Source: Saprospiraceae bacterium
GTDB taxonomy: Bacteria > Bacteroidota > Bacteroidia > Chitinophagales > Saprospiraceae
Assembly (NCBI GenBank): GCA_022841505.1
Contig: JALHRK010000005.1
Span: forward strand, 1-48,364
DNA: 48,364 nucleotides
Direction: 5' to 3'
Made by a program: the position numbers and the translations under genes. The notes beneath the pieces were generated by a model. The model was not told the origin of the DNA. It searched no databases and saw nothing but the letters and a program-made list of their open reading frames with translations. Positions 7,514 through 22,700 of this stretch are shown piece by piece. Position 1 is the first letter of the stretch. The number at the start of each line of letters is the position of its first letter.

Positions 7514-7520
7514 AACCTAT

Positions 7521-7865: not shown

Positions 7866-7871
7866 CTGCCA

Positions 7872-7901: not shown

Positions 7902-8013
7902 ATCAAGTTGTCGGGAAAATGCGGTCGTTGGTCGAAAAAGAGACGGGAAAGCCGAAGCCGCGCGGCTTACCTCCCCGTCCCACCCACGCCGCATTGGCCG
8001 CAGGGTTTGGTCT

Positions 8014-8235
8014 TTAGTCGGCCTTGCGCTCCACGGTGATGATCTTGACGCCGGAAGCGACAAGGGCGGCTTCAATTTGTTCGACGGTTTCCATTACGGT
8101 ATCGGACGCGCTGCCTACCTTCAAAGATGTTTTAAAATCTTTGCCGGGCAAGTTTGAGAAGTCTACCAAAAATTCAATCTTGTCAACGGCTACCAGTTTT
8201 TTGGTGCCGTCCGGGTCTGTGAGTTTTAAGAACAT
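8014..8235 (-). CDS. Hypothetical protein, 73 aa
   Basis: Small beta/alpha protein (LVAVDKIEFLVDF, then a helical TVEQIEAALVASG and a final strand VKIITVERK). No family recognised. The start is preceded by ACAGATAGAAACC, which combines both start contexts of this genome. Last gene of the upstream early cluster before the non-coding region. Confidence 0.65.
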   Translation of the reverse strand: MFLKLTDPDGTKKLVAVDKIEFLVDFSNLPGKDFKTSLKVGSASDTVMETVEQIEAALVASGVKIITVERKAD

Positions 8236-8240
8236 GGTTT

Positions 8241-8645
8241 CTATCTGTTTAAAATGTTTATAAATTCAATCGGCAGCGCCACGTTTCCCACCCCCACGAA
8301 CTCCCGGAACAGGGGCGCGATCTGTTCCGGCGTGTACCCCGCAAGGCCGCAGCCGACTTTCGTAATCAGGAAAACCGATTCCGGCATCAGGCGGACGCAA
8401 ACGAGTAGCTCGTCCACGTAGATTGCGATGCGGTGCAGGGGCATGGTTTTTAAATCCAGGTCTTTCGTTGGAAGGGCGAACGTTTGCCCCATGATTCCGA
8501 ACCCGCATTTATGCTTTGCCCCGAACTGGAGCGCTTGCAATGCAGCACCTTTCCCATGCCGCCCGGCTAAATTACTGCCGAAAACGAATATCTCGTTCGG
8601 TTGCAGATACGTGATGCGGGCGGGGGTGATGCGTTGCGGGGTCAT
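8241..8645 (-). CDS. A1S_2505-family phage non-structural protein
   Basis: The pattern is diagnostic: PNEIFVFGSNLAGRHGKGAA (16-35), GQTFALPTKD (53-62), then FLITKVGCGLAGYTPEQIAPLF (92-113). This family is widespread in phages, annotated as non-structural, and the GSNLAGRHGKGAA loop recalls macro-domain nucleotide or ADP-ribose binding. Reaction and substrate are unknown. Start overlaps the upstream gene stop as ATGA. 134 residues is the usual size. Confidence 0.85.
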   Translation of the reverse strand: MTPQRITPARITYLQPNEIFVFGSNLAGRHGKGAALQALQFGAKHKCGFGIMGQTFALPTKDLDLKTMPLHRIAIYVDELLVCVRLMPESVFLITKVGCGLAGYTPEQIAPLFREFVGVGNVALPIEFINILNR

Positions 8646-8956
8646 GGTCGGCCTATATCTTGTAGTTCATTCCAACTCGACGCGCGTAAAATTTCAAGAT
8701 ACTCCAAATCTTCTTTGGCCACCTTAATTTCTCCGTAGCGCATAGATACCGTTCGTGGATGAATAACCAAAACGGTTATCTTGTCTGGAACAAAGCCATC
8801 TTCTCCCGGCTTAAAAAGTTCTTCTATTGTAGTATATGAACCATGAATCCCGGACGTTGAAAATAAAACCACGTTCATCGGGTCGGCTATCCCTTGCGGG
8901 AATAACCGCTTTAGCTCATCTATACTTTTAATTTTTTGAACTGCGTAGTATTCCAT
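8642..8956 (-). CDS. Hypothetical protein, 104 aa
   Basis: Start chosen at MEYYAVQ (8954-8956), where TAATG links it to the upstream stop. Mixed alpha/beta, with IKSIDELKRLFPQG early and VAKEDLEYLEILRASSWNELQD late. No family recognised. It is the middle of a run of coupled small early genes. Confidence 0.65.
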   Translation of the reverse strand: MEYYAVQKIKSIDELKRLFPQGIADPMNVVLFSTSGIHGSYTTIEELFKPGEDGFVPDKITVLVIHPRTVSMRYGEIKVAKEDLEYLEILRASSWNELQDIGRP

Positions 8957-9303
8957 TACGTTTTCTGTTTTGCCTCCCACGCCTCGGCGCAGGCTTCGGC
9001 GGGGTTTTCGTGAACATATTGCGGCGTTCCATCTTCAAGTGCCCGCCAATCGTCGTAAACTTCAAAGGTTGCTGTTAATGCCCGGCGTATCAAATACGTG
9101 CCGCTGTCTAAATGCAGCAGGATGTCCGGGGCGGTGGGGGCGTAGGTATACGCATCGGCAAGCCACATAGGCGAATCAAGATTGCCGACAAGAAACGGGT
9201 TATCCTCCGCGTCATACCAAACCTGCCCAAATGCTGCTTCTGGTTGCGGGAAACCCAATTCTTTGAGCCGCCGGGCGGTGGCGGGGGTGCATCTATCGTT
9301 CAT
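8956..9303 (-). CDS. Hypothetical protein, 115 aa
   Basis: Start taken at MNDRCTPATARRLKELGFPQP (9301-9303), with ATACC before it. An upstream TTG is possible but less likely. The N-terminal 'TARRLKELGFPQP..A..VWY' reads like a short helix-turn segment often seen in phage proteins of unknown role, and the C-terminus is acidic (ENPAEACAEAWEAK). Overlaps the coiled-coil gene stop by 11 bases. Confidence 0.6.
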   Translation of the reverse strand: MNDRCTPATARRLKELGFPQPEAAFGQVWYDAEDNPFLVGNLDSPMWLADAYTYAPTAPDILLHLDSGTYLIRRALTATFEVYDDWRALEDGTPQYVHENPAEACAEAWEAKQKT

Positions 9304-9616
9304 GGTATAATTGATTTTGAAGGTATTCAATTCGGGCTGTTAGCCCTTCAATTATAATGAGCCTGTTTTGGCTACTTTGCTTTAAAAAATCCTCGCGCGA
9401 TTCAAGGTATTGAATCTTTTTACGCCGCCATTCCGCCACGGCAATCACCCGGTTCAGGCGGTCGGCAGATTTCTCTAACTCCCCGTGCATTTCCGCGATG
9501 TCATCATGCAGGGTGCAGATCATTTCGAGCCGTTGCTCTGCCGTTGCGGTAAGCTCGGCAATCTTTTCGTTTTGCCGCTCCATTTTGAAGCGATCTGTTT
9601 TAGTAGCTGCACTCAT
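9293..9616 (-). CDS. Coiled-coil protein, 107 aa
   Basis: Almost entirely helical with heptad-like spacing over residues 12-105, rich in Glu, Lys, Arg and Leu. No other domain. Directly downstream of and overlapping the 329-aa coiled-coil protein, so the two may assemble together. Start preceded by AAAACAAAGCC. Confidence 0.65.
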   Translation of the reverse strand: MSAATKTDRFKMERQNEKIAELTATAEQRLEMICTLHDDIAEMHGELEKSADRLNRVIAVAEWRRKKIQYLESREDFLKQSSQNRLIIIEGLTARIEYLQNQLYHER

Positions 9617-10602
9617 GGCTTTGTTTTATCTTCAATGAATTTATCAATCTTACCCAACAGAATTTTCACGTCCTGCAACACCTTCCGCATCGCCGGGTCT
9701 TGGATCGGTGCGCACTGTACTTGTAAAATCGCATCGCCATACGCCCGGAGCTTTTCGCGGTCGGTTTGTCGGCTTTCTTTTGTTTCAGCAATGATTTGGT
9801 CAACGGGTTTGCCGTAGTCTTTGAAATGGTTTGCAATTGCCTGCTTTGCGTCCTGCTCTGCACGTTCGGCGGCCTGTTTAGCAATTGCCATTTCCCGTTC
9901 TGCTTCGCGCTGTGCCGCCTGTGCCTTTGCAATCAGGGCGTCCTTTTCGGCCTGTTCTTTGCGCAAGCGTCCCAGTTCTTCCCGTTCCGCTTTCTCACGT
10001 TCGATACGTGCAAGCCTTTCAGCTTCGATCTGCCGGGATTTCTCTTGAAAGTAGGCTAAGTTGTCCTGAAATTCCGTTTTAGTCATTGCGCCCCAATTAG
10101 GCCACGGCATAGGCACGGTTTCAATATACGGAAGGATCAGCGCGTACCGTTCCACGCGCAGTGCTTCGACGCGGACGGCTTCTTTGCGCTCGATGTATTC
10201 CGCCTGTGCTTTTAGGTGTTCAATGGCGGGTTGGATCAAGGCGAGGGCGGCGCGTTTTGCTGCATCAAGCGTTTGACCGTAGCGCAGGGCATCCTCTTTT
10301 AGTTCGCCGTGTTTGGCGGTCAGGCTTTTTTCTAAGCCTTTCAAAGCCGTAACGGCTTGCGCCGCGTCGAACATCTTTTCCTTTTCCGTCTCATCTGCCA
10401 CAATCAGGGCGAAGGCGGGGGTGACGTAGCGCTCTATGCGCTCAAAGAAGTCGGCAAAATTGGTAACGACTTCCTCCTTAACAGATTCAGGTGCTTTTAC
10501 GCTTTCCACGGCGGCAACGAGTGCCGGAAGGCGGTTATCTTTTTTGAGTTCTTCCAGCACCCGAATTTGTACGGGTTGTGGGGTGGTGAGTTCTTGTGTC
10601 AT
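9613..10602 (-). CDS. Large coiled-coil early protein, 329 aa
   Basis: Residues 90-150 and 190-255 are strongly helical, with long runs of charged heptads (ERLARIEREKAEREELGRLR and later). Such proteins often occur beside ssDNA-binding or annealing proteins in phage early regions, and here an OB-fold candidate lies two genes upstream. A role in recombination or DNA end handling is inferred from context only. No Walker or nuclease motif is visible. Start context ATAAACAGCC before ATG. Confidence 0.7.
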   Translation of the reverse strand: MTQELTTPQPVQIRVLEELKKDNRLPALVAAVESVKAPESVKEEVVTNFADFFERIERYVTPAFALIVADETEKEKMFDAAQAVTALKGLEKSLTAKHGELKEDALRYGQTLDAAKRAALALIQPAIEHLKAQAEYIERKEAVRVEALRVERYALILPYIETVPMPWPNWGAMTKTEFQDNLAYFQEKSRQIEAERLARIEREKAEREELGRLRKEQAEKDALIAKAQAAQREAEREMAIAKQAAERAEQDAKQAIANHFKDYGKPVDQIIAETKESRQTDREKLRAYGDAILQVQCAPIQDPAMRKVLQDVKILLGKIDKFIEDKTKP

Positions 10603-10790
10603 GGCTGTTTATTTTGCGCCTCTTGGCTTCTGGTTAATAATGTGATTGCTATCTGCGTAAACAAATAAGCAGCCGCTTTTTCAGCGCCAGCGTACTTTGC
10701 CCCCGCTACAACGTGCAGGGCTTGCGCGGTCAGCATGTCGCCTGCTTGGGTTTCTTCTTCTGCGAGTTCAATTAATCTTTCTATTGTCAT
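10599..10790 (-). CDS. Small helical protein, 63 aa
   Basis: Predicted all-helical, acidic at the N-terminus (ERLIELAEEETQAGD), Ala-rich in the middle. No family recognised. Stop overlaps the coiled-coil gene start as ATGA. A hairpin (10803-10830) lies just upstream, between it and the OB-fold gene. Confidence 0.6.
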   Translation of the reverse strand: MTIERLIELAEEETQAGDMLTAQALHVVAGAKYAGAEKAAAYLFTQIAITLLTRSQEAQNKQP

Positions 10791-10844
10791 GGTTCAAAAG
10801 TTGTGCCGGGCACCCGTTCAGGCACCCGGCGTGTAAAGGGATGA

Positions 10845-11312
10845 TTAAGGGCGCGTTGAGATAAAAATGGTTGCCGTTGCCGATGCAAGAACATCCGGGG
10901 GGGCGTGGCGAAATTCGAGCGACGCGGTAAGGTCAGTGGCAATCTGCAAATAGATTTCGGTCAGGTTCTTCGCCCGTTGCTGCATCGCTTCGTGATCGTA
11001 ACCGTTGGCCTGTGGCGTATATCCTTGCCCGTTCGTCACGGCGGCGGGGGTTGTGGACATCGGGGCGCCGGGGGTGGGGCTGCCTTCGTTTGCTGGACGT
11101 TGGTCTTTGCAGAAATTCCAATACTTGCCGTCTTTTGATTGCTCGATCATAACGTCTTGCCCTTTTTGTAGGTGGTCGTAATCGCCCCCCTTACCCCAGA
11201 CTAAAACCTCTTGACCGTTTCCAAGCGCCACCTTAATACTTTGCGAGAAATTGCCCGTGCTGGTGGTCTTGCTTTCGTTTACATATTTGATTGTTGCTCT
11301 TACTGCGCTCAT
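10845..11312 (-). CDS. Probable OB-fold ssDNA-binding protein
   Basis: The first 80 residues (VRATIKYVNESKTT, FSQSIKVALGNGQEVLVWGKGG, LQKGQDVMIEQSKDGKYWNF) read as an OB fold of five strands with aromatic and basic residues, as in SSB-like phage proteins. A Pro/Gly-rich linker (about 82-110) and a helical C-terminus follow. There is no acidic DDIPF tip; a tip of that kind instead appears on the helicase and on the 62-aa protein. Position among early replication genes supports ssDNA binding. Confidence 0.65.
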   Translation of the reverse strand: MSAVRATIKYVNESKTTSTGNFSQSIKVALGNGQEVLVWGKGGDYDHLQKGQDVMIEQSKDGKYWNFCKDQRPANEGSPTPGAPMSTTPAAVTNGQGYTPQANGYDHEAMQQRAKNLTEIYLQIATDLTASLEFRHAPPDVLASATATIFISTRP

Positions 11313-11317
11313 AGCGT

Positions 11318-11992
11318 TTATCTTTTAAAGGTTTGATAATAAGATTCTTGGTATCCGCTTTCCTCTTGGTGCCACGCTTCGCGCTCCGACTCGCTAAGGT
11401 GGTCGCCTTTCGAGAAGTTGATAAGAAGTTCCCGCTGTATTGCATCGTCAAATTCGCCATTAAACCGAACCCAGATACGATCATCCGGCTTGTGGTTTGT
11501 ATTGAAAACTTGGCATCTAACCATGTCCCGTTCCGGCTTCGGAAAGCGGTCGTAAATTAACACCGTGTCTCCCACCTCGTGCCGTCCCGCAATCGGGTAT
11601 GCGCCTATCTGCACCCAACCCGGTGACGTGATCGGGAACATAGTAGGCCATAATGCCCCGTCACCGCGTGTTACACCGTCGGGCATGAAGTCCCGGCGGT
11701 TGATGTACTGCATTTCTACCGGAGCGGGTTGCGGTTCTTCGCGGGGTTCCACATAGTCCATGTAGGCAATGATGTGGTCGGGCATGCCAACGCACACCTT
11801 GAAACGGTATTCGCCTGTTACGACTTCGCAGCATTTTAAGTCCGTATTGGTTTGAAGTTCCATCCAGAACTTATTTAGCGTGTCTACCGCGCCAGCGTAG
11901 GCGGTGCAAATATTGTCGCTGTCCCAATGCTTTTTGCCGGGCAATTCATTGTTTACTAAAACATACCCGGTTAAATCTTCGATAACTTTCAT
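11318..11992 (-). CDS. Hypothetical protein, 224 aa (first gene of a box-controlled early operon)
   Basis: No recognised family. An N-terminal part (residues 1-90) with VLVNNELPGKKHWDSDN, then a region with RRDFMPDGVTRGDGALWPTM and VGDTVLIYDRFPKPERDM, possibly a beta-barrel, and a charged helical C-terminus. Start preceded by AAAAACAACGACC. Upstream are a TATCTTTG element and two TTGGTCG boxes. It likely leads the early operon down to 8014. Confidence 0.7.
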   Translation of the reverse strand: MKVIEDLTGYVLVNNELPGKKHWDSDNICTAYAGAVDTLNKFWMELQTNTDLKCCEVVTGEYRFKVCVGMPDHIIAYMDYVEPREEPQPAPVEMQYINRRDFMPDGVTRGDGALWPTMFPITSPGWVQIGAYPIAGRHEVGDTVLIYDRFPKPERDMVRCQVFNTNHKPDDRIWVRFNGEFDDAIQRELLINFSKGDHLSESEREAWHQEESGYQESYYQTFKR

Positions 11993-12023
11993 GGTCGTTG
12001 TTTTTGATTGCTAATTGATATCA

Positions 12024-12089
12024 CAAAGATAAAGTGCAAAATATTTTACGGGTAATGTGTTCGACCAACGTAACACTTTAACCGACCAA
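12024..12089 (-). promoter_or_regulatory. Promoter with two TTGGTCG boxes (site B)
   Basis: Leftward TATCTTTG at 12024-12031; the expected -33 TTG is replaced by TAC. Boxes start at 12062 and 12083 (21 bp apart), the near one 31 bp from TATCTTTG. The missing -33 suggests that the boxes act through an activator. Shares the intergenic region with the divergent promoter at 12146-12176. Confidence 0.75.
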
Positions 12090-12145
12090 AATACGAATCT
12101 GTCCGATCTGTGTAAATTTCTGACTCGACACAGAAAGCATATGTG

Positions 12146-12176
12146 TTGTTTCTGTGCAAAGACAGACTTATATTTG
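12146..12176 (+). promoter_or_regulatory. Rightward promoter for the membrane protein gene
   Basis: TTG at 12146-12148, 20 bp, TATATTTG at 12169-12176, 30 bases before the ATG at 12207. Perfect match to the Bacteroidota consensus, no box. Confidence 0.8.
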
Positions 12177-12206
12177 CGTATTGTTTAATTAAAGACAGAT
12201 AGAAAA

Positions 12207-13754
12207 ATGACACAAAACAAAGAAGACCGCGACATTGCGCGCGCGTTCTACAACACCTATCAAGGCGGGCATTGGATTCTTGCCGCCGGAACAGCTTACG
12301 CGGGCTGGTACTTCACCAAAACCTTAGGCGGGCAACTATTCGGGGAATACACGTATCACGCCGCCTGCGCTGCCGGGCTATTCGCTTACTACCTGTTAGA
12401 CAACCAGGTGCTTAAATTTGCCCCCCGTGCAATTACCTTTGTCCTTTCCGGGTTCGGGGTGAAAGGCAAGGCCGCACGGGTAGACCAAAAAAGCCGGGCA
12501 AACAAGATTTTTGATTTGATGGTTGTATCGGTTTTCGCGCTTATGCTTGCCGCGTCCTTCTATTCCAATACGATTATCGTTCCCGACATTTCCGGCGAAA
12601 TTACCGGGGGTGCAGACACAGACACCGAAAAACGCAGCATGGGCGGGAATAATGCCACCTATGAACGGGAGTTAACAGGGTACGAAGAACAGGTTAAAAG
12701 CGCACAGGAAGCGTTGGTATCAGCAAAGGTAGCAAGGGATGCAGACGTAAATAGCGCCGTTAATTCAGAGCTTCGCCGCCTTGCGTCCGGCGGCAACGAT
12801 TGGGCAAAGGGCGAAATTAAAAAGACGCAAGCAAGTGTAGGCCGAAAGCATGACAGAACTATCCGAAAAGCACAGAACGCCCTTCTGTCTGCACAGAAAG
12901 ACTACAAAGCCTTTGTTTCTTCGCAGGGTGGAAAGGTAAAAGACGCCAATATGTTGCTTGCAGGGGTGGTGGAAAAGAAGGAAGCAAAGCAGGAAAACAA
13001 GTTTTCGCGTTGGCATGGATGGCTGAGTATTGCAATGTACACCGGCCTTGCCCTTTTCCTTTTTGGCTGCATCGGATGGCAGTGCTACCAAATAGACACG
13101 GGCGACAATATTGTATCTGACTTAACCACCGGCAAAGTTTTGTCAGCATTCAAAAGCAAAGCCGGACAAGGAGCGAATAAAGGGCTTGCCCGTGCGCTTG
13201 GCGTCCGTGACCGGATGCAATTCCAATACAACGGCAACGGCACAATTGCGGCTACTCTACCCCGCACGGCAGAACGCCGAACAAACTCGCTTGGTGCTAC
13301 CCTATCCGACCGTGAAATTGCCGACCGCGAACATTTTAAGCGGGACGTTGAAAGACAGGAAGAACGGCGGCGGGAACCGGCGGGACAGAACTCCGACCGG
13401 GATTGGACAGAAATCAAGACAGAGACAGAAAAACGGACAGAACAGAGACAGAACGCGGACAGAACAGAAAAACGGGACATTTTTGGCGTTGTAGGGGAGG
13501 GGAGTGTCTACCCAGACCCGGAAGATAAAGAGGCAATGAAGGGCTTCGTGAAACGTCTCCGAGCTGCATCCTCTTATAACCCAAACGATCCCCGCGTTGC
13601 TCGTGAGATTACATGGCTTCAAACAAAGGGGTGGAGTTGCGAAGAACGCGACGGGGGTAAGTGGATCATTACCCGCCCTGTAAAAACTACTGGAACGGTG
13701 GAGAATGAATTTGAATGGGACGTGATGAGTAACGGTGAAACGGGCGAAGCATGA
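12207..13754 (+). CDS. Large multi-spanning membrane protein with coiled-coil and charged C-terminus, 515 aa
   Basis: Hydrophobic segments at about 22-40, 50-66, perhaps 70-84, 101-122 and 270-292. Between the fourth and fifth lies a helical, coiled-coil-prone region (about 155-265). Residues 300-515 are hydrophilic, with a long Arg/Glu/Gln-rich stretch (about 370-425) and a final region resembling a small winged helix (REITWLQTKGWSCEERDGGKW). I recognise no family. It has its own consensus promoter and ACAGATAGAAAA before ATG. The stop overlaps the winged-helix gene as ATGA. A host-envelope function such as exclusion or signalling is only a guess. Confidence 0.75.
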   Translation: MTQNKEDRDIARAFYNTYQGGHWILAAGTAYAGWYFTKTLGGQLFGEYTYHAACAAGLFAYYLLDNQVLKFAPRAITFVLSGFGVKGKAARVDQKSRANKIFDLMVVSVFALMLAASFYSNTIIVPDISGEITGGADTDTEKRSMGGNNATYERELTGYEEQVKSAQEALVSAKVARDADVNSAVNSELRRLASGGNDWAKGEIKKTQASVGRKHDRTIRKAQNALLSAQKDYKAFVSSQGGKVKDANMLLAGVVEKKEAKQENKFSRWHGWLSIAMYTGLALFLFGCIGWQCYQIDTGDNIVSDLTTGKVLSAFKSKAGQGANKGLARALGVRDRMQFQYNGNGTIAATLPRTAERRTNSLGATLSDREIADREHFKRDVERQEERRREPAGQNSDRDWTEIKTETEKRTEQRQNADRTEKRDIFGVVGEGSVYPDPEDKEAMKGFVKRLRAASSYNPNDPRVAREITWLQTKGWSCEERDGGKWIITRPVKTTGTVENEFEWDVMSNGETGEA

Positions 13755-13960
13755 CACAGTGCGACCAAGTGCTTGCCTACCTGACCGAACACGGCGCGAT
13801 CAGCGACACCGTTGCCCGTGAGCTTTTCGGGATCAACCGCCTTGCCGCCCGGATTTGGGACTTGCGGCGCAAGGGGCACAAGATCGAAAACGAAACCGTG
13901 ACATTTACAACTCGCTTAGGACGAACCGGGAAATATGTAATATACCGGCTCAAGGAATGA
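13751..13960 (+). CDS. Small winged-helix DNA-binding protein, 69 aa
   Basis: The whole protein fits one winged helix: QVLAYLTEHGAISDTVARELFGINRLAARIWDLRRKGHKIENE, then a beta hairpin ending KYVIYRLKE. The order helix, GAISD.A..LFGI turn, RLAARI.DLR recognition helix, GHKI wing is typical of phage helix-turn-helix proteins. It overlaps the membrane protein gene as ATGA and is followed by a terminator. It is one of two candidates for the factor that binds the TTGGTCG boxes; nothing in the sequence decides this. Confidence 0.8.
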   Translation: MTQCDQVLAYLTEHGAISDTVARELFGINRLAARIWDLRRKGHKIENETVTFTTRLGRTGKYVIYRLKE

Positions 13961-13964
13961 ACGA

Positions 13965-13997
13965 AGCCCCGGCACCGTGAAAAGTGTCGGGCTTTCT
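13965..13997 (+). terminator. Rho-independent terminator after the winged-helix gene
   Basis: AGCCC-c-GGCAC paired with GTGTCGGGCT around an 8-nt loop, followed by TTTCTTC. A second strong GC hairpin (about 14006-14036) follows before the end of the leftward gene at 14068. Confidence 0.75.
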
Positions 13998-14067
13998 TCA
14001 TGGGTGCGCCGGGTGCGTTTCCGGGCTGCCCGGCGCGAACGAGCCTATGAAGGCTATCCCATGAAAT

Positions 14068-14430
14068 TCAGGCTACGTCTGCCGTGTCCGGCAATTCCAG
14101 CGCAGCGGGTACAACCTTACCCCGTTCGATGGCGGCATAGGTGTAGTAAGCGCCTTTCAGCCCTGCCACAACTGCGTTAGCTACCATAACATCCACGCCA
14201 ACGCCAACCAGGCGCGTCACCTGCCGGGCAAATACGTCCTCGATCTGTTGCGGCAATGCAGCAATTGCTTCCGCTTTCAATCCTTCCAGTCCCGCGAACG
14301 CGGGGCCAGCTTTCAGAAGTTGCGGCAAAAGTGCAATAGCGTCCTGCCACTGTGCGCCGTCTGCCAGTTCCCGGATAGAAATAGCAAAAGTTTCGCCCAA
14401 AAAATCCAATAATTCTGTTGTCTCTTTCAT
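14068..14430 (-). CDS. Hypothetical protein next to the holin, 120 aa
   Basis: Helical, Ala/Leu-rich, soluble; ends in PDTADVA. No signal peptide or catalytic motif. The order holin then this gene, on one strand with 29 bases between them, suggests a link to lysis or to the virion, but I cannot name the family. Start context TTCACAACC before ATG. Confidence 0.65.
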   Translation of the reverse strand: MKETTELLDFLGETFAISIRELADGAQWQDAIALLPQLLKAGPAFAGLEGLKAEAIAALPQQIEDVFARQVTRLVGVGVDVMVANAVVAGLKGAYYTYAAIERGKVVPAALELPDTADVA

Positions 14431-14459
14431 GGTTGTGAATTTTTATAAATTTACGTAAA

Positions 14460-14876
14460 TTAAAATTTTCGCTTAATGATGTCGGTAATCGGTGGAATGG
14501 CAATCTTTTTCCCCGTGATCTGGCTGGCGTTTTCAAGATTGCTCACCAATTCGGCGTAACAAATCTGAATCGCAACCCCGTAGGTCAGCGGAACGGGGAA
14601 CGGTAGCCCCCGAAGGAACACGTACCAAAACCCCTCTGCCAGTAACATAATGCCGATGTACAGCCCAAGTTTTTCAACTGTTCTCCGTATGCCCTTCGAC
14701 GTTATTTCTTCCCCTCGCTTCCGTGCTGCCTGCCTGCCGGTGTACTGGTCGGCAAAAACAAAGAAGATGGTAAGCAGGGCGAACGGGGCAAGTGGCGTAA
14801 TAAAGGCGACAAAGAACCCGGTAAATTGTGCCGCCACCGCCTCAAACCAAAAGGCTATTTTTACAATCCTGTTCAT
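14460..14876 (-). CDS. Phage holin, toxin secretion/phage lysis type
   Basis: 138 residues with hydrophobic segments at about 5-25, 28-45, 70-88 and 92-110, and a conserved charged middle (FADQYTGRQAARKRGEEITSKGI) as in the phage_holin_4 family common in Firmicutes and Bacteroidota phages. It forms membrane lesions that set the time of lysis. Start chosen at the second ATG (14874-14876), preceded by AATCCAC; an earlier one at 14897 adds seven residues. Confidence 0.8.
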   Translation of the reverse strand: MNRIVKIAFWFEAVAAQFTGFFVAFITPLAPFALLTIFFVFADQYTGRQAARKRGEEITSKGIRRTVEKLGLYIGIMLLAEGFWYVFLRGLPFPVPLTYGVAIQICYAELVSNLENASQITGKKIAIPPITDIIKRKF

Positions 14877-14941
14877 GTGGATTAGTTTAGTTTTCATAAC
14901 ATAATACATTTGTGTGGTATGCAGATAAACCGGATTCGGGT

Positions 14942-14972
14942 GCAACATTATTCAACATGTTGCGTATATTTG
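14942..14972 (+). promoter_or_regulatory. Rightward promoter with palindromic operator
   Basis: TATATTTG at 14965-14972, directly preceded by a perfect inverted repeat GCAACAT/ATGTTGC with 8-nt spacer (14942-14963) that occupies the -33 region. No TTG at the usual place. A terminator lies at 15003-15030, so the product would be an RNA of about 50 nt unless terminated differently. Confidence 0.5.
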
Positions 14973-15002
14973 TTTTTAGATTACATTTTGTTTCTTTTTA
15001 GT

Positions 15003-15030
15003 GCCGGGTCTTGGTCGTCCCGGCTTTTTT
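15003..15030 (+). terminator. Terminator with a TTGGTCG box in its loop
   Basis: GCCGGG/CCCGGC with a 10-nt loop and six T. The loop carries TTGGTCG at 15011-15017, in 21-bp phase with two further boxes downstream. Confidence 0.8.
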
Positions 15031-15097
15031 ATTGGTCGAGTTTTCGGGGTGGTTGGTCGGGAAAAGTTTTAATTAAATCAGTCATCGGGTAACTTTG
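15011..15097 (+). promoter_or_regulatory. Promoter with three TTGGTCG boxes (site C)
   Basis: Boxes begin at 15011, 15032 and 15053, exactly 21 bp apart. TAACTTTG lies at 15090-15097, 31 bp from the near box. The -33 position reads TTT rather than TTG. Drives the gene at 15113..15439. This is the clearest example of the element. Confidence 0.85.
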
Positions 15098-15112
15098 AAA
15101 GAAAAAAATACC

Positions 15113-15439
15113 ATGTGTGACTTTGTAAAAAAGCCCTGCAAGCATTGCCCTTTTCGTAACGATGTTACGCCCTTCCTGCATCCCGACCGTGCCGCTGAAA
15201 TTGCTTATGCCGCTGAAAATCCTTACTCTGACTTTCCCTGCCACAAAACAACGGAATACAACGAAGATACGGAAGACTTGGAATACACAGATCGTTCGTT
15301 AACGTGTGCAGGCTTCCTTACCCTTCGGGCGCAATCTGGAGAAGATATTCCAGAAGGTTTTGAGCCATCATGGGAAATTATCTACACCGACCCTTACGAA
15401 ATGGTACAGGCTTACGAGGAGCAATGGGAGAACAGATAA
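15113..15439 (+). CDS. Cys-rich DUF6283-like protein, 108 aa (box-controlled)
   Basis: N-terminal KKPCKHCPFRNDVTPFLHPDRAAEI and a later FPCHKT and LTCAGFL give four spaced cysteines (and a histidine), likely a zinc or iron-sulfur site; this pattern is familiar from DUF6283 proteins of phages and bacteria, function unknown. Start is the ATG at 15113; an upstream in-frame TTG overlaps the promoter element itself. Single-gene transcription unit under three boxes. Its stop abuts the convergent protease gene. Confidence 0.75.
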   Translation: MCDFVKKPCKHCPFRNDVTPFLHPDRAAEIAYAAENPYSDFPCHKTTEYNEDTEDLEYTDRSLTCAGFLTLRAQSGEDIPEGFEPSWEIIYTDPYEMVQAYEEQWENR

Positions 15440-16900
15440 CTATTCCCCGTCAAACGTTTGCATCCGTACCCCTTTCGTTACCCCGGCAACCGCCTTGCTT
15501 TGCGCTCCCTGCCGTCTTTGGTTTCCAGATAAGGTAAACACCTGCCCGGCTTCGTTCGTAGCTGTGATGCGGGCGCAAACAATCGGAAAGCCCTGTGCTT
15601 TGCTGATCATTTCCGCGAAGTGTCTTGCCCAAAATAGCGCCTCCCATTCATCGTCACCCGCAAGCAAAACAAACCCCCGCTGCACAAAGAACGAACCGAT
15701 CCAGCCGGACGCCACACTATGCGCTTTGGTAGCGGGGTAGGTGGATTGATATTCTACCTCAAACTTAAGCCGGATATTCTCAAACTGCTCTCGGTCAGCC
15801 GCTCGCCAAAACATCGTATACTCCCCCGGCACCGTTACGTTGACCGTGCGCAGTTTTCCGGGGGGCTGCGGTGGTTCTACCCCGCCCTGATCCGGCAATG
15901 GATTGTTTACAACCGTCGCCTTTGGCAATCCGTGACCGTTGCGAACATCTATTCCGTTCGGCAATAGATCGGTAGCGTATTTTTTAAGGTGTGCGCTTAC
16001 CCGCTCGTTTATCTTGGTGCGATCCCCGGCAAGTAGTGCTGCGCGGTGCTGCGTTCCAATTAGCGCACAAACCCCTGCGATCATTGGCCCTGAAAACGAG
16101 GTTCCCGATACCCGTGCATAACCGCCGTTTTGATTGGTCGAATAGATGGAAACCCCGTAGGCCGTCACGTCTAAGCCTTCGCCGCCGGATGAGAACTGTG
16201 CAGGCTTTGACTGCTGATCAAGTGCGGCCACGCTGTTTACAAAGTCGTACCGTGCAGGCCACCCAATGGTGTTACCCGTTCCCGGATAGCCGGAATTGCC
16301 CGCACTGGCAACCAATACCATGCCTTTAGATTGCGCATAAAGTAGCGCCTGTTCTACGTCGGGCATGGGAGATCCGCCGCCAAACGACATAGAGATAATG
16401 CCGATTTTGTCCGGAAAATATTTTAGATGTGCGTCGGTGGATTTGATAATAGACTGCGCAATTTCCCCGCTAAATCCTTGCCCGTTGTTTCGCATCCCTT
16501 TAGCTGACACGGTAATGGTGCCGGGTGCGATACCTAACGCACCATAGCCGTTATCAAGTGCTGCAATAACGCCCGCGCAATAACTACCATGCCCATTCCC
16601 GTCGTACATCGGCTCTGGCGTGGTATTTATGTTGTATTGCTGCCCTTCTTGCGAAACATCAGAGTGTGGGTTTTGGCCGGTGTCAACAATCCAGACCACC
16701 GCGCCTTCGCCCCGGTTCTTAACCCATGCCTGATCCGTTTCCATTAACGGATGCCAATAATCGAGTACTTGAGCGAGTGAGCGCACGGCTTCAAATTCAA
16801 CCGTGTAGCGGGGAATCTCAAAGTCCGGGCGTTCTGGTTCCTGCGCAAAGCCGACAAGGGCAAGGCAGGAAAAAAGGAAAGACAAAAATTTAAACTTCAT
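15440..16900 (-). CDS. Secreted subtilisin-like serine protease (S8 family)
   Basis: 486 residues. Signal peptide at residues 1-19 (MKFKFLSFLFSCLALVGFAQ, cleavage likely before Gln20 or after it). The S8 catalytic domain spans about 60-310, with Asp73 in IVDTG, His104 in GNGHGSYCAG, oxyanion Asn202 in AGNSG and Ser268 in SGTSFSGP. A Pro-rich linker (about 335-345) precedes a C-terminal domain of about 140 residues that I cannot name. All catalytic residues are present, so it should be active and exported. It lies in the lysis/fibre region and may act on host envelope proteins during lysis or on virion proteins. Start context GAACAGCC before ATG. Confidence 0.95.
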   Translation of the reverse strand: MKFKFLSFLFSCLALVGFAQEPERPDFEIPRYTVEFEAVRSLAQVLDYWHPLMETDQAWVKNRGEGAVVWIVDTGQNPHSDVSQEGQQYNINTTPEPMYDGNGHGSYCAGVIAALDNGYGALGIAPGTITVSAKGMRNNGQGFSGEIAQSIIKSTDAHLKYFPDKIGIISMSFGGGSPMPDVEQALLYAQSKGMVLVASAGNSGYPGTGNTIGWPARYDFVNSVAALDQQSKPAQFSSGGEGLDVTAYGVSIYSTNQNGGYARVSGTSFSGPMIAGVCALIGTQHRAALLAGDRTKINERVSAHLKKYATDLLPNGIDVRNGHGLPKATVVNNPLPDQGGVEPPQPPGKLRTVNVTVPGEYTMFWRAADREQFENIRLKFEVEYQSTYPATKAHSVASGWIGSFFVQRGFVLLAGDDEWEALFWARHFAEMISKAQGFPIVCARITATNEAGQVFTLSGNQRRQGAQSKAVAGVTKGVRMQTFDGE

Positions 16901-16980
16901 GGCTGTTCTTTTTTTGTTGGTAAAGCCGTCCCCGCGCTTTTTGGGCGCAGGGAGCGGAGGGACAGATAGAAAAAAATGTC

Positions 16981-17011
16981 TTGCACATTTGGTGGAATGC
17001 GGTTATATTTG
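16981..17011 (+). promoter_or_regulatory. Rightward promoter of a putative small RNA
   Basis: TTG at 16981-16983, 20 bp, TATATTTG at 17004-17011: perfect consensus, no box. The transcript would end at the terminator 17068-17097, giving an RNA of about 80 nt. Confidence 0.7.
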
Positions 17012-17017
17012 TATTCA

Positions 17018-17097
17018 GTAAGGTTGATAGTATGATTTTTCATTTTGGTTTTTTGGGGTTATATTGAAAGCCTCTGCCATCCGGTGGGGGCTTTTTT
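17018..17097 (+). ncRNA. Candidate small RNA of about 80 nt (or leader with an 11-codon peptide)
   Basis: Bounded by a perfect promoter and a U-rich terminator with no room for a normal gene. Contains a possible 11-codon frame at 17032-17067. Function unknown; it could also be a terminated leader for 17199..17516. Confidence 0.45.
17068..17097 (+). terminator. Terminator of the small transcript
   Basis: AAGCC...GGCTT hairpin around 17068-17092 followed by six T. Confidence 0.7.
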
Positions 17098-17101
17098 GTT
17101 A

Positions 17102-17167
17102 TTGGTCGGGTAGATTTGGCTGTTGGTCGGTTTAAGTTGCACAAGGTGCCGGGTGTATGTAAATTTG
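17102..17167 (+). promoter_or_regulatory. Promoter with two TTGGTCG boxes (site D)
   Basis: Boxes at 17102-17108 and 17123-17129 (21 bp apart); TTG at 17137-17139, 20 bp, TAAATTTG at 17160-17167. The near box is 31 bp from TAAATTTG. Drives 17199..17516. Confidence 0.85.
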
Positions 17168-17198
17168 TAGCATTAGTTAACCAGTTAAAATCAATGCA

Positions 17199-17516
17199 AT
17201 GAAAGATCAAGTAAGCATTCCAAAACATGGCATAACTTGGGTTAATGCACCTGCTCACATTACGGCAGATTGTCGGCTCAATGTTTACCTGCCAAACGGT
17301 CAATCAGATTATCGGCAATTTGCCCTATCAAAAAAGCATATTGCCGACCTCCCCGAATACCACAGGGGTAAGGTTAAGGACTTGTTGACGCAGTTTATTT
17401 CGGGCGCTAAAAATACATCTATTGTACCCGCTTCCCTTGCGCCAACCGGCACCAGTGCAATGGCATCAAAAACAGAAATAGAAGACGTTCGATTCGCTCT
17501 TGAAAACTTCTTTTAA
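17199..17516 (+). CDS. Hypothetical protein, 105 aa (box-controlled)
   Basis: N-terminal part is strand-rich with NVYLPNGQSDYRQFALSKKH, then helical DLPEYHRGKVKDLLTQFISG, a Ser/Thr/Ala linker and an acidic C-terminal helix (KTEIEDVRFALENFF). The final two Phe residues after an acidic helix are noticeable. No family recognised. It is a single-gene unit with its own box-controlled promoter and terminator. Confidence 0.7.
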   Translation: MKDQVSIPKHGITWVNAPAHITADCRLNVYLPNGQSDYRQFALSKKHIADLPEYHRGKVKDLLTQFISGAKNTSIVPASLAPTGTSAMASKTEIEDVRFALENFF

Positions 17517-17542
17517 CCCGCCGCCATTTTCAAAGAGCTATT

Positions 17543-17576
17543 GCCCAACCCGCCCTTTAGCAGGTTGGGCTTTCTC
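17543..17576. terminator. Bidirectional terminator between convergent genes
   Basis: GCCCAACC/GGTTGGGC with a 12-nt loop, followed by TTTCTC on plus; the leftward gene at 17584 ends just beside it. Confidence 0.75.
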
Positions 17577-17583
17577 TTTCCCG

Positions 17584-18018
17584 CTACTCCGTCACCGGCT
17601 CCGCCTTCGTTGGCTTGTCCCCGCTTTCCTGCAATGGTATGCCGATACGAGAAACTTGTTCGGCGCTATACGCATAGATCGGCGTAAACCCATCCACGGG
17701 CGCTTTGATCTTGCCGTTAACGAATCCATCCCGCACGGCATTAAACCCGCTACCGAGGTTTGGCACCTTATCCATGCGTACCTGGTGCATGACAGCTAAG
17801 TACTGCGCATCCGGTAGGGCGGTGTTGGCTTTCTTCCAAATCACCTGCACATTTACCACGTAGTAAACGGGGGTGCCGGGTACGGCTGCCAGCGGCTCCG
17901 CCTGCGCTTCGACGGGCTGCGCTTCATCAATCATTTGCTTTACCTCATTCGTTCCGAGGGCGGCAAGCAAGGCAGCAAAAAGGATATTCAAAATCTTTTG
18001 CCAGTTCAACTTTTTCAT
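17584..18018 (-). CDS. Membrane-anchored hypothetical protein, 144 aa
   Basis: Start at MKKLNWQKILNILFAALLAALG (18016-18018), giving an N-terminal hydrophobic anchor; the C-terminal 100 residues are outside the membrane and contain YYVVNVQVIWKKANTALPDAQ and a basic/acidic tail. The start context is AAATACAACC. Its place among exported proteins and near the holin would suit a spanin-like or envelope role, but no motif proves it. Confidence 0.65.
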   Translation of the reverse strand: MKKLNWQKILNILFAALLAALGTNEVKQMIDEAQPVEAQAEPLAAVPGTPVYYVVNVQVIWKKANTALPDAQYLAVMHQVRMDKVPNLGSGFNAVRDGFVNGKIKAPVDGFTPIYAYSAEQVSRIGIPLQESGDKPTKAEPVTE

Positions 18019-18028
18019 GGTTGTATTT

Positions 18029-18586
18029 TTAAAGTTTGAAGGCGAAAACCGCCGTTTGAAAACCAATTCCGTAGGCGAGTGCAGAAATGCCCGCATCCGC
18101 CGCGTAATGCCACCACGGGCGCTTTTGCCCTATCCCTATACTTACCCCCGTTCCCAACATGCCCCACCGATGGACGCTTGCAAACAGGTGCTTTGCGTCG
18201 GTAGTGGCGACAAGGAAAGTATTGGAACCAAAGAACCGGGGGGTAAGGGGCTGTATTAATTGCCCGTCCTCGCCCCGCTTCCATTTGTTTTCCCAGCTTA
18301 CCCGGTTGTCCCAAAAGTATTCGTTCCATGACGGGGGTATTCTATCCGGCCAATTCACGCACGTTTCGTGTATGCCCCAACTTGCGCCCGAAACGAACGC
18401 AAGCGAAGCGGGTAGGATGATCCGGTTAAGGTCGTACTTTATCGCGTCCGTTTTCTTTGCGGGTGGCAATACGTTAACCTGCACCTCGCCGGGGTAGGCG
18501 CGAAAGCCAACGGGGTTCGGTGGCCATTGCTCGATCTGTGCGGGCGCAATGGCGGGGGAAAGCAGGAAGAAAAGCAATCGTTTCAT
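18029..18586 (-). CDS. Exported hypothetical protein, 185 aa
   Basis: N-terminal MKRLLFFLLSPAIAPAQ is a signal peptide. The body has an aromatic-rich middle (WGIHETCVNWPDRIPPSWNEYFWDNRVSW) and a C-terminal RPWWHYAADAGISALAYGIGFQT segment with two likely membrane helices. I have seen this C-terminal pattern in Bacteroidota phage proteins of unknown function. It follows the next upstream gene without a gap. Confidence 0.65.
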   Translation of the reverse strand: MKRLLFFLLSPAIAPAQIEQWPPNPVGFRAYPGEVQVNVLPPAKKTDAIKYDLNRIILPASLAFVSGASWGIHETCVNWPDRIPPSWNEYFWDNRVSWENKWKRGEDGQLIQPLTPRFFGSNTFLVATTDAKHLFASVHRWGMLGTGVSIGIGQKRPWWHYAADAGISALAYGIGFQTAVFAFKL

Positions 18587-19234
18587 TTAGTTGCTGTTTA
18601 GGTTAATGCCTGTCATCCGTAACTCAATTGCCCGGTCAATCGTAAACCAACGCCCGCGTCGAAGCCTGTAAAAATTCGTGTTCGTTCCAGTCGGAAAGTT
18701 TACAATCCTGATCCAGTTTGCGCTAAACATTTCGATATTGCGCGTTGCGCCACTGATCCCCGGAAGTCCCGAAACTCGCAGATTGCCGTTTGCTAATAGC
18801 CGGATTTGCAGGTTTGTATTGCCGCCGTTTCGGTACGTCCACGCCTTGTCTGTTAGGACGGAATCTACAAACTCCGTATAGTATAGCGCCCGAATGTCCT
18901 TTAAAATGTCCGCACCGATTGCCGTTGTTGCCGCCTGCGCAATGTCCCGGATTTTGTTCACATCCTTTTGTCGGTTAAGTACCACAAGCGCAGCGGCTGC
19001 AAAGGGGTTAGTGGTTTCGATAATTTGGTTTGTCAAGGAATTGCGCACCGTTGTACTGTGGCCTATTTTAGTTGTCTCCGATGCCGCCTCACCGTTATCG
19101 TACTTCCAATACCTGGTTTGAAAGAAGGTGCCATTGACGTTTGTGAGCAGCCCCAAACTGTCGGTTGTGAGTTCGCGCTGTGCGATGGCTTGCATGGAAA
19201 GCAGCAACAAGGCTGCTAAGATTATACTTCTCAT
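18587..19234 (-). CDS. Exported hypothetical protein, 215 aa (fibre-associated)
   Basis: Signal peptide MRSIILAALLLLSMQAIAQ. The mature part is Thr/Asn-rich, with a helical middle (VLNRQKDVNKIRDIAQAATTAIG) and a C-terminal beta-rich region. Start context CGACAGATG; overlaps the upstream gene as ATGA. It lies directly downstream of the fibre gene, so it may be a virion surface or fibre assembly protein. Confidence 0.65.
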   Translation of the reverse strand: MRSIILAALLLLSMQAIAQRELTTDSLGLLTNVNGTFFQTRYWKYDNGEAASETTKIGHSTTVRNSLTNQIIETTNPFAAAALVVLNRQKDVNKIRDIAQAATTAIGADILKDIRALYYTEFVDSVLTDKAWTYRNGGNTNLQIRLLANGNLRVSGLPGISGATRNIEMFSANWIRIVNFPTGTNTNFYRLRRGRWFTIDRAIELRMTGINLNSN

Positions 19235-19719
19235 CTGTCGTTTATTTTTTCAAGCAGTGTTTGAAATTCTGATTTGCGGACGGCCTCCTTCATGCCGTGC
19301 ATCCTGACGCGGGTTTCGTGTCGTAGGCAAGCACGACAAATCCGGGCTTCATTTTCAGTGCTGGTCTTTCCGCAAGGTGGTGGTATTTCCGAGGTATGAA
19401 TAAGATTGATGCCGTTAACTTCCCGCCATTCCGCAACCACCCAATCGTGAGCGCATTTAGGTTTGCCGGCGTTCTTTGCTTGCCATTCCGTGAATTTCTC
19501 CCATGGCTCGCAGTCGGGTATTCGGAATTGATAACTTGTTGAATACGCTTGCCCCCATGTACCGATGCCAAAGTGTGGCGTCCCGTCGTTCCAGAAAATA
19601 GCCGTATCAATAACCCCTGCATAAACTTCGCCGTCGAAATGCTCTACCGGAAGCTGTACCGATCTTTGCGCCTGTGCCAGTGCGGGGATAAGCAGGAATA
19701 GGAAAAGTATCTTTTTCAT
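19231..19719 (-). CDS. Exported hypothetical protein, 162 aa
   Basis: Signal peptide MKKILFLFLLIPALAQAQ. The mature region contains paired cysteines and histidines (ARICRACLRHETR near residues 127-139, KPKCAHDW at about 87-94), suggesting a metal site or disulfides. No family recognised. Between the fibre and the 215-aa exported protein, 5 bases from the former. Confidence 0.65.
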   Translation of the reverse strand: MKKILFLFLLIPALAQAQRSVQLPVEHFDGEVYAGVIDTAIFWNDGTPHFGIGTWGQAYSTSYQFRIPDCEPWEKFTEWQAKNAGKPKCAHDWVVAEWREVNGINLIHTSEIPPPCGKTSTENEARICRACLRHETRVRMHGMKEAVRKSEFQTLLEKINDR

Positions 19720-19724
19720 GTCTG

Positions 19725-22700
19725 TTAGATTTTTCTTAGCGTGTAAGTAAAGTCTGAAATTTCGCAGCCGTTTGTCGTGTCAAAGGAGATATTAACCCCG
19801 TCCCCGTCCGGTAGCGTTATCACGGTGCTATGCGATCCGCTTATCAATTCCCCTGCTTTTATCGTCATCGTCTTTTGCCCGGCGCGTAATGCCGTGTAGG
19901 TTGCGCCGTCCCAAATCTGCGTTTTAACCACCATGTCCACCGTCCCGGAAGTGCTTTCTGCTGTGAAGCTGTATTGTAGTGCGTAAGTGCCGGATGCGCC
20001 GCTGGCATTTGTTACGCGCCCGGACGCGTAAGAAAAACCGTTCCCGGCGTAATGCGCATATCCGTTCGCGTATATCTGTTGTCCGGTGCCAAGTGTCCGG
20101 GTAACCGTGTCTGCAACGGTTTCGGTGTTGTTGCTTAATGTCAGTGTTCCGTCATCAAATTGGATGCCGGATGCACCGGTTCCGTCTATTGTTACGCTTG
20201 TCAAGATATTGCTTGAATTGTAGGCGGCTAAAGTTATTCCGTCCCCGTTGGTGATGTCTGTTATTTTTACAATATCCGAATGTACAACCCCGTTTACCCG
20301 GTTTGTGTCGCACGTCACAACCACATTGGTTACGGCGTCAAGCCCTATATATGTATCTGCTACAATGCTAAGGCTTGCGCCCGTAGCCGTAAGGCTCATT
20401 ACGTCCGAGCTTAGTGCTATCTCGCTTAGTGCGTCTACCGTCAATTGATTTGTTGTTACGCCTGTTATACTCACGTCATTCCCCGCCTCCAGTTCTGGTT
20501 TCAACCAAGTACCAAAATCCGTTTGCGCCCGCAAGTTCACCCGCCCCGTACTTCCGTCCCGAACCAGTACTGAATCTGTAGACGTGCCAACCGGGTACAC
20601 GCCCTCTAACACTAAGCTATCCGAATCTATCCGCGCCTCGCCTGTTATCCCGGCCTGCAATTCGAGGTTACCCGCTGCCGCTATAATCGTCCTACCTGCG
20701 CTGTTGATTTGTATTTGTCCCGTCGTGCTACCCGCGTCAAAAAACGTGTTCACGTCGCTTGCAGCTACCCAGTAGTTTGAGTTCATAAATACGTCAGGAT
20801 AGCCCCCCGCGTCCCGAATCCGAAACGTTTGCCCCGCGGTGTTTACGGTGGTTGTTCCCGAAAGCGTAAGCGGTAGAAACTGCGCCTTTAATGCCGTCGT
20901 ATCTACCCCAACCCCGCCCGATGCAAGGGAAAGGCCGTATCCGGGGGTGATCGTGGTTAAGATATTTCCCGCCGTTGCGCCAAGCCACTGCGTTGCTGTG
21001 CCAGTGAGGGTTGCGGGAGTGAATGTGCCATTGCTTCCAAATTTTGCAGCTTGCGTTAAGGTTCCCGCACGTATTGTATTAATATATGCGTCTGCATCTT
21101 CATTTGTGTTTGTAACGTCGTTGTAAGAAGATGTTAAAGATGTGGCTATGCGTGAACTCCCTGCTCCGCTTTCTAAATCTATTTCTATTCCGCCGCCAAA
21201 TCCATTAGTTACCGTTCCGCCAAGATGAGTAAATCGTGCGATTGGGGTAACTGTATTTGTCGCAGCAGAAGTTAAAAGAACCTGTAATTGTCGTTGTGGG
21301 TTTGACATTCCTATCCCGACACTTCCCTCAATTATTGCGCCATTGGTTGGGGCTGTTATGCTGCCAGAATACGTTGTGCCAACTGCCATAGCACCCTCTA
21401 TGTCTACTTTGTTTGCGGGGCTTGAAGTGCCAAAGCCTGCGACGCCAGTATTTTTAACCGTGAGTCCAGTTGCCGAAGTAAATCCCATTAAAATATTTGC
21501 TGCATTGAGCCACATATCCCTATACGCGCCCGCGCTTCTGTCGTAAGACGTAAAGAACGCAACCCCACTACCGCCGCTTGTACTCCCCGCACTGCCGTCT
21601 GCGTCGTAAATAAGCTCAAAACCAGCACCAGAGGACGGGTATGTTGGCACGGTTCCGCTATTAATCCTTGCAATACCCCCGCTGATATCTAACCTTGCGC
21701 CGGGGCTTGCCGTGCCGATTCCCACCCGAATGTTAGAATTGTCTACAAAAAAATTGGAGTTGTTTTGTGTTATCGTGCCATCACTTCCCCCAAACAACCA
21801 AGACCCCGCCGTAAAAAGCCCGTTCGTTGTGGCAGACCGCGCTGGATTAAACCACGCGGTTCCGTTGTGGAAATCGAACCACCCGTTCGAGGTGTTGGGG
21901 TAGATCATACCGAAACTTCCAGTCGGACGCGCCGCTGTCGTTCCACCCACGCCACCAAATGCAAGGTTTGCATCCAACATGACGCCGGTTGCAGATTGTA
22001 ACAGGGTAGAGCTTCCGAGGCTGTTTGAACCAGTCCAAACCGGAATCCGTAGGTTTGTGCCGGTGCCGGAAACGGAAGCGGCAAGGGAATCAGCAAGGCC
22101 GGTAATGTCCGAAATTGCAAGGGGTAGCGCGATCCCGGCAGGGTAGCCGATGCTATCCCGCGTCACCTCCACGCCTTCGCTGTACCCGACAATAATAGAA
22201 TCTTGCAGCACGGCAATGCTATCCACCGCGCCCGCCGTTCCACCACCGCCTGAACCAATCGCCAGCCATGCGCCCGCCGTGTAGGCATACAAACTATCAT
22301 TCGTGGAATTATACCAAAGGCTATACTCGTAACACACCGCCGCGCTCGTTCCGGTGGCGGACGTGGAAACGGGCGTCGTATCGCGTACCACCGTGCCGAC
22401 AGGCTGCCAGCACTGTTGTTTTTCTTCGTAGTAATAAGTGAGACTATCTGTGCTGTTTTGCCAAAGCGTTTCTGTGAAATCCACAAAGTTAGAACCCGCC
22501 GCACGTGTTGCCGGGGGTGGGTTTGATTGTCTTACGGTGCTGTTTGCGTACCAACGGGGATAGCGCCAAACGTAATCCACGCCAAGCGCCGTATCTCTAT
22601 GTATTTGTGTATTGTTGCGCCAACTTGCCGCCGTGGGCGTGTGGAGCGGGACGGTATCGGAATAGGATGTAATACCCAATGCCGTTGTTTGTTTACCCTG

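Follow-up and report, generated by a model that had tools for sequence, protein, structure and literature searches.

Dispersed tandem-boxed promoters of a Bacteroidota phage share their layout with promoters of bacterial genes and resemble LytTR-type operators

Regulators with a LytTR domain bind direct repeats, mostly of 9 bp with a 12-bp gap (21-bp period), and activate; in Streptococcus mutans these repeats are located 4–11 bp upstream of the −35 element (excerpts of PMC6193735). According to the same excerpts, the LRS-like operons of Bacteroides thetaiotaomicron and B. ovatus carry repeats of 11 bp, separated by 11 bp (22-bp period), ahead of TGTA/TGTG-19-TATCTTTG, and repeats diverging from the consensus were reported by the authors themselves. 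AgrA of Staphylococcus aureus binds two direct repeats upstream of poorly spaced promoters (excerpts of PMC4227749). Furthermore, proteins with a LytTR domain have been described in phages of Pseudomonas, and phages carrying agr without AgrA may use the AgrA of the host (excerpts of the review PMC11945551). The phage DNA described here has in common with the targets of AgrA, of HdrR and BrsR of S. mutans and of LytTR regulatory systems the presence of oriented direct repeats about 21 bp apart immediately upstream of the −35/−33 element (excerpts of PMC6193735 and PMC4227749). However, its box, TTSGTCG (S being C or G), differs from the repeat sequences listed in those excerpts and looks unlike the S. 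mutans repeats given there. In addition, the phage has up to three copies of the box, eight dispersed promoters and no LytTR domain that could be found.

The window, that is, the whole stretch of DNA analysed, is the complete contig C5 of 48,364 bp from a 7.5-Mb genome bin of 999 contigs (G000), and it is a tailed-phage contig. It encodes (final signs give the strand) a large terminase (45075-46421-), a DnaB helicase (4871-6274-), a replication initiator (6740-7513-), a tape measure protein (29570-32203-), a holin (14460-14948-), a subtilase-type protease (15440-16900-) and, with a weak match (E 2e-4), a portal protein (35504-37279+). Searches of the window found neither tRNAs nor an exact direct terminal repeat of 10–1999 bp, and no integrase was seen among the 26 proteins searched out of about 70 likely ones. 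Cultured relatives were matched neither by megablast with positions 4000–24000 nor by tblastn with positions 24214–25281; three helicases and one protein of the group C phages described below matched cultured relatives only at less than 60% identity. The terminase showed no blastp match among the called genes of the related phages P1 and P2 and no tblastn match in them at E≤1, whereas the surrounding structural genes do match; a 53% relative was found in locus L003, and a terminase exchange is possible. Two small proteins encoded at opposite ends of the contig (342-578- and 47950-48357-) resemble each other by eye, and a single P2 gene is matched by each of them at 28%, which could reflect circular permutation or gene duplication.

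A sequence-only reading of the window had proposed seven sites in which TTGGTCG boxes stand at a fixed distance from a TAnnTTTG element. All seven are present, with seven exact boxes in register with TAnnTTTG, and an eighth site that it considered degenerate is also real. The distance is indeed fixed, but its value, given there as 31–32, was counted by us as 30 or 31 nt from the near box to TAnnTTTG (the gap), one less.

On the minus strand, tandem TTGGTCG boxes 21 bp apart (near 4115–4121, distal 4136–4142) stand at gap 31 from the −7 element TAAATTTG (4076–4083), behind which the first gene (3671-4042-) encodes a 123-aa protein of phrog_7880, of unknown function. Another tandem TTGGTCG pair (12062–12089) is found at gap 30 from TATCTTTG (12024–12031), ahead of a gene for a 224-aa protein (11318-11992-). 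Two promoters are on the plus strand. The first has three TTGGTCG boxes (starting at 15011, 15032 and 15053; 15011–15059) and gap 30 to TAACTTTG (15090–15097), and its first gene (15113-15439+) encodes a 108-aa protein that is DUF6283-like at a sub-threshold score (26.4 bits, cut-off 27). The second has tandem TTGGTCG boxes (17102–17129), gap 30 to TAAATTTG (17160–17167) and a first gene (17199-17516+) for a 105-aa protein without Pfam or PHROG family.

The other four promoters are again on the minus strand. Two of them had been taken as single-boxed, but each has a distal box in register: TTGGTCG with distal TTCGTCC (37565–37571) in 37544–37571, at gap 31 from TATATTTG (37505–37512) and ahead of a gene for 45 aa (37336-37473-), and TTGGTCG with distal CCCGTCG (42204–42210) in 42183–42210, at gap 30 from TAACTTTG (42145–42152) and ahead of a gene for a 72-aa protein of phrog_2993, of unknown function (41910-42128-). 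The eighth site (39841–39868) is composed of a near TTTGTCT and a distal TACGTCG, with gap 31 to TAACTTTG (39802–39809) and a first gene for 68 aa (39580-39786-). Finally, the promoter at 45030–45078 has a near TTGGTCG, a middle TTCGTCG (45051–45057) and a third box, the one-mismatch copy TTAGTCG (45072–45078), with gap 31 to TATATTTG (44991–44998) and a first gene (44718-44957-) for a 79-aa protein without PHROG. Its middle box had been described as degenerate and as the distal one; TTCGTCG is a regular variant in the related phages.

The exact TTGGTCG sequence was observed 19 times in the window versus 8.3 expected, a number reached by none of 100 shuffles, and 7 of the 19 copies sit 30 or 31 nt upstream of one of the 56 TAnnTTTG sites. 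Exact TTSGTCG boxes in forward orientation, up to 100 nt upstream of TAnnTTTG, showed gaps of 2 (one), 30 (four), 31 (three), 51 (three), 52 (two) and 72 (one), all of which except the one at 2 keep the 21-bp register; reverse-oriented boxes near the same 56 sites gave gaps of 48, 79 and 100, one each. The repeats had been said to lie exactly 21 bp apart, and same-strand spacings of up to 120 bp between exact boxes were 21 (six) or 42 (one) in the window, with no other value either there or in P1, P2 and P3. When a full promoter was defined as a box pair with at most three mismatches in total, a gap of 30 or 31 and TAnnTTTG, eight were found in the window against a mean of 0.01 and a maximum of 1 in 200 first-order Markov simulations. 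A search of the entire bin for TTGGTCG-N29-32-TAnnTTTG yielded 10 matches, seven on the 48-kb contig and three in the other 7.4 Mb, and its backward control yielded two. Chance matches are negligible, as had been claimed, and the proposal of one dispersed and oriented operator system is supported. The boxed promoter element is real, conserved and not due to chance.

Conservation was evident in related phages. A full-promoter scan of viral contigs gave P1 (IMGVR_UViG_3300029171_000011), with 29 called genes matching the window and eight boxed promoters, and P2 (IMGVR_UViG_3300020045_011543), with 23 matching genes and seven boxed promoters; several of these promoters adjoin the same flanking genes as in the window. 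Thus, window promoter 12031- and its counterparts P1 8443+ and P2 17716+ lie beside the gene of a 515-aa protein, the eighth site (39809-) matches P1 29828+ and P2 36232+ beside the gene of a 582-aa protein, and a promoter nearly identical to that at 42183–42210 is found in P1 at 27238+. The 515-aa protein (12207-13754+; P1 6697-8256-, P2 15988-17532-) has, by eye, apparent membrane segments and a charged region, and no Pfam or PHROG match; in the window, P1 and P2 its gene points away from the boxed 12-kb promoter, and the HTH_39 gene comes next. P3 (IMGVR_UViG_3300017774_005323) is a largely unrelated phage, with HTH_39 and four called genes in common with the window; a third, exact box is present in five of its eight boxed promoters. 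The phages of group C (P4, P6, P8 and P9) are related among themselves and have one to three genes in common with the window; clear promoters number two in P4 (one at gap 32) and one each in P6, P8 and P9, with one further weak boxed promoter in P9. Since the window with P1 and P2, P3, and group C all carry boxed promoters, at least three phage groups use this design. A wider pattern gave 26 stretches in 21 viral contigs, and some of them, which lie in coding DNA, are probably chance matches.

Bacteroidota sigma-A promoters have the consensus TAnnTTTG with TTG or TTTG about 19–21 nt upstream. The 31 boxed promoters of the window (8), P1 (8), P2 (7) and P3 (8) agree with it, TAnnTTTG being present by construction of the search: TTG is at the usual −33 place, 20–21 nt before TA, in 18 of them and at 19 nt in another 3. 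The gap is 30 in 17 and 31 in 14. Counted from the 7-bp near box, TTG starts 7–8 nt past its end in 19 promoters and is absent there in 12, some of which have one 1–3 nt off. The weak −33 elements previously pointed out at 12, 15 and 37 kb are among these 12.

An ATG-started frame of at least 30 aa was present behind all 31 promoters, with the ATG 20–55 nt after TA, and the first proteins range from 45 to 224 aa. Among them the only convincing homologous pair (E≤0.01) is that encoded by window 11318 and P1 8485; one first protein of P2 and one of P3 share a match of 16 residues with an E of 0.003. Because the first genes are nearly all non-homologous, the promoters persist while the genes downstream get replaced, which amounts to a fixed promoter with an exchangeable small cargo. 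Several boxed promoters occupy matching places across phages, yet their small first genes are almost all unrelated. By eye, two types of leader common to several phages could be distinguished: in one, TAACTTTG is followed by AAAGAAAAA and the ATG is 20–24 nt after TA; in the other, TATATTTG or TATCTTTG is often followed by a TATYARTTAAC-like stretch and the ATG is about 40 nt after TA. Also by eye, a G-rich run such as gggcggggtggggg was seen between the −33 region and TAnnTTTG in the group of the window, P1 and P2, for instance at window 44998- and 42152- and in many gap-31 promoters of P1 and P2, and not in P3.

That the element is peculiar to phages of Bacteroidota was not supported by the search of bacterial genomes. 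The composite pattern TTSGTCK-N14-TTSGTCG-N30/31-TAnnTTTG was found at no fewer than 117 loci in bacterial genome contigs, and the 80 titled loci among the matches listed comprised 71 from Bacteroidota, 8 from other taxa and 1 unassigned. Since Bacteroidota genes, too, are preceded by the composite pattern, the element is not restricted to phages. Many frames behind the host promoters start, by eye and among the matches listed, like membrane or secreted proteins.

A profile built from the LytTR proteins of the bin detected a LytTR gene in 17 of the 117 listed loci and none in the other 100, with up to 8 kb examined per locus. These are 17 frames at E≤1e-6 in 878,605 bp of locus DNA, where 1.6 or 2.5 would be expected depending on the background set (185 LytTR genes at E≤1e-12 in about 104 Mb of 30 class-level genomes, or 289 at E≤1e-3 in about 100 Mb of 24 genomes of the class, both cut-offs being different from that applied to the loci). 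The enrichment is therefore seven- to elevenfold. AraC genes, whose background frequency is similar (197 in those 30 genomes, versus 185 LytTR genes), served as a control and gave 4 frames versus about 1.7 expected, with a model from 6 seeds out of 14 loci. According to gene maps, the LytTR gene is adjacent in all 17 cases, in 12 of them downstream of the boxed promoter and co-oriented with it, and in 5 in the neighbouring divergent operon. Pfam identified OMP_b-brl_3, a histidine kinase (PF06580) and a Response_reg plus LytTR protein at locus L164 and confirmed kinase or LytTR genes at L104, L118, L094 and L088, and L053, L083, L104, L113, L117, L133 and L153 resemble L164 by gene size and order. 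Since about eight of the 17 loci look like one OMP-HK-LytTR operon type, they are not independent, and the Poisson P of 1e-12 for the LytTR excess is for this reason overstated.

The 14-bp spacer between the boxes, which the pattern left free, was compared as well. It reads gTtAAtTgccgcgg in the window, P1 and P2, ATaAaTaagGcACg in P3, and aa.AAaa..gGccg at the LytTR-linked host sites. The in-register correlation with the LytTR-linked set was 0.61 for the window, P1 and P2 and 0.46 for P3, above all 13 circular shifts (maxima 0.52 and 0.35) by a modest margin. With host sites having no LytTR gene in view it was 0.63 and 0.47, and with the eight non-Bacteroidota matches 0.37 and 0.18. The spacer likeness is consequently not special to LytTR-linked sites.

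Layout and host neighbourhoods alike indicate the LytTR family. Direct-repeat pairs with a period of about 21 bp that stop a few bp short of the −33 region, on its upstream side, are present in the phages as in LytTR operators, and the Bacteroidota OMP_b-brl_3/PF06580 histidine kinase/LytTR operons have the same composite promoter and a similar spacer, although as a rule with one site, at the regulator's own operon, instead of a dispersed regulon. PF04397, the LytTR domain, was found by Pfam search neither in nine viral records nor on the window contig, ten phage contigs in all, and when nine phages were searched locally with an unfiltered profile, no LytTR match fell below E 0.89. Given boxes that fit the LytTR layout and phages in which no LytTR domain was found, a host LytTR regulator is the most economical reading. 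It is thus rather probable that the boxes are LytTR-type operators at promoters of the Bacteroidota sigma-A type, activated by a LytTR response regulator of the host. Such a regulator would occupy a single face of the DNA by binding two or three repeats of TTSGTCG, as their 21-bp period would allow, sit beside the −33 region and help RNA polymerase where the promoter's own −33 element is often weak. In this way the phage would put one switch at eight places, in front of small accessory genes and of the operon starting with 11318–11992. We infer that the boxes are bound by a LytTR protein, that this protein is of host origin, that it activates, and that the genes are early. The idea of a phage using a LytTR response regulator of its host is shared with the agr-carrying phages lacking AgrA; those phages carry quorum-sensing genes, while phages of the type described here carry operators at many promoters (excerpts of PMC11945551).

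The bin itself and the host family provided mostly negative data on host use of the element. The strict tandem pattern gave five matches in the bin, all on the phage contig and none outside it, and for this reason a host-wide regulon in the bin's own species was discarded. The bin has 33 PF04397 genes; the neighbourhoods of 32 of them showed no excess of 21-bp repeats before TAnnTTTG and no box pair with three or fewer mismatches at gap 30–31, and weak pairs were found at five promoters with up to four mismatches versus 1.2 simulated. Elsewhere in the phylum, 30 LytTR loci of other genomes showed no 21-bp signal, and 98 other genomes did not contain the strict pattern. In the host family, a relaxed pattern gave 17 matches in 15 of 99 other genomes versus six backward-control matches, a slight excess. 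These results for bin and family leave three options: a host that seldom uses this exact box, a phage whose host is a different organism, or a binder encoded by the phage itself. One LytTR frame of the bin (G000:C11:37197-37634-) is short, with 146 aa and no visible receiver domain. An exact TTGGTCG-N14-TTGGTCG pair at G000:C11:37569-37596 was considered as a promoter-regulator pair; its boxes are part of the upstream reading frame of this gene (residues DQLQAQNDQ), and as the pair is also missing from the box-TAnnTTTG matches, it was taken as chance.

A phage-encoded regulator binding the boxes of an early or middle regulon, with the likeness to LytTR operators arising by convergence, agrees with the abundance of tandem-boxed promoters on the phage contig and their absence elsewhere in the bin when the strict pattern is used. 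This regulator could be the winged-helix HTH_39 protein (13751-13960+, 69 aa), already suggested as a binder by the sequence-only reading, or a protein of no recognised family. HTH_39 is kept in all four phages with multiple promoters, that is, in the window, P1 (54%), P2 (61%) and P3 (34%). Its candidacy was nevertheless weakened, because operator and regulator do not go together: among the viral loci with HTH_39 relatives, 76 of the 80 examined (out of 161) show no boxed promoter in the stretch of DNA covered, the exceptions being P1, P2, P3 and L262 with a weak single match, while P4, P6, P8 and P9 have boxed promoters and no significant HTH_39 match. Neither can HTH_39 explain the host loci, since among loci L026–L166 only L031, a viral one, has it. 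A phage-borne LytTR protein too diverged to be detected is conceivable in view of those known from Pseudomonas phages (excerpts of PMC11945551). Taken as a whole, a phage-encoded binder appears rather unlikely. The other binder suggested earlier, a LacI/HTH_3-like protein of 69 aa (28612-28821+), was rejected, as it was found only in P1 among eight phage records compared. Neither of these two proteins is a member of the LytTR family.

Mycobacteriophage L5 reportedly has stoperators, many oriented and asymmetric single sites bound by the phage repressor. The boxes are likewise many oriented, asymmetric sites scattered on both strands of a phage genome, and a binder that silences their promoters until release might be imagined. 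Unlike the L5 sites, they are fixed to promoters at one distance, and in the 31 promoters they are located upstream of the −33 region and not over the −7 element. Moreover, 12 of the 31 have no TTG 7–8 nt after the box, as activator-dependent promoters would, and no integrase was seen among the window proteins searched. Repression is accordingly quite improbable. Because the boxes abut the −33 region from upstream and TTG is absent in 12 of 31 promoters, an activator is likelier than a repressor, as had been proposed. Least probable, and quite improbable in itself, is a binder from the Bacteroidota host that belongs to some other family and whose sites adjoin LytTR operons by happenstance, for although 100 of the 117 listed host loci have no LytTR gene in the up to 8 kb examined, the seven- to elevenfold enrichment, the adjacency in 17 of 17 cases and the match to the published LytTR repeat geometry (excerpts of PMC6193735) all speak against it.

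No description of this element was found in the titles or abstract beginnings of the open-licence papers searched. LytTR-like tandem operators are known from bacterial genes; what seems to be new, as read from the genomes, is a dispersed promoter system of this kind in viruses with no detected regulator. It offers a signature by which regulated promoters of this class can be recognised in phages and hosts among the Bacteroidota, and links it to a large family of regulators with hardly any documented sites for this phylum in searchable papers. The small genes behind these promoters form a coherent and fast-exchanging set, which is worth screening and could be mined for host takeover or anti-defence genes. 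A bolder reading, which we regard as unlikely, is that no fewer than three groups of Bacteroidota phages, largely unrelated to one another, each put operators of an envelope-sensing host LytTR system (outer-membrane barrel, PF06580 kinase and LytTR regulator) before accessory genes. A host surface sensor, perhaps triggered by infection at the outer-membrane protein, would then switch on small takeover or anti-defence genes, with the promoters staying and the genes being exchanged. If a host response regulator drives the promoters, phage gene expression would depend on the sensory state of the host. The occurrence of the design beside LytTR genes in bacterial genomes suggests that the virus borrows a switch of its host to turn on small genes of its own.
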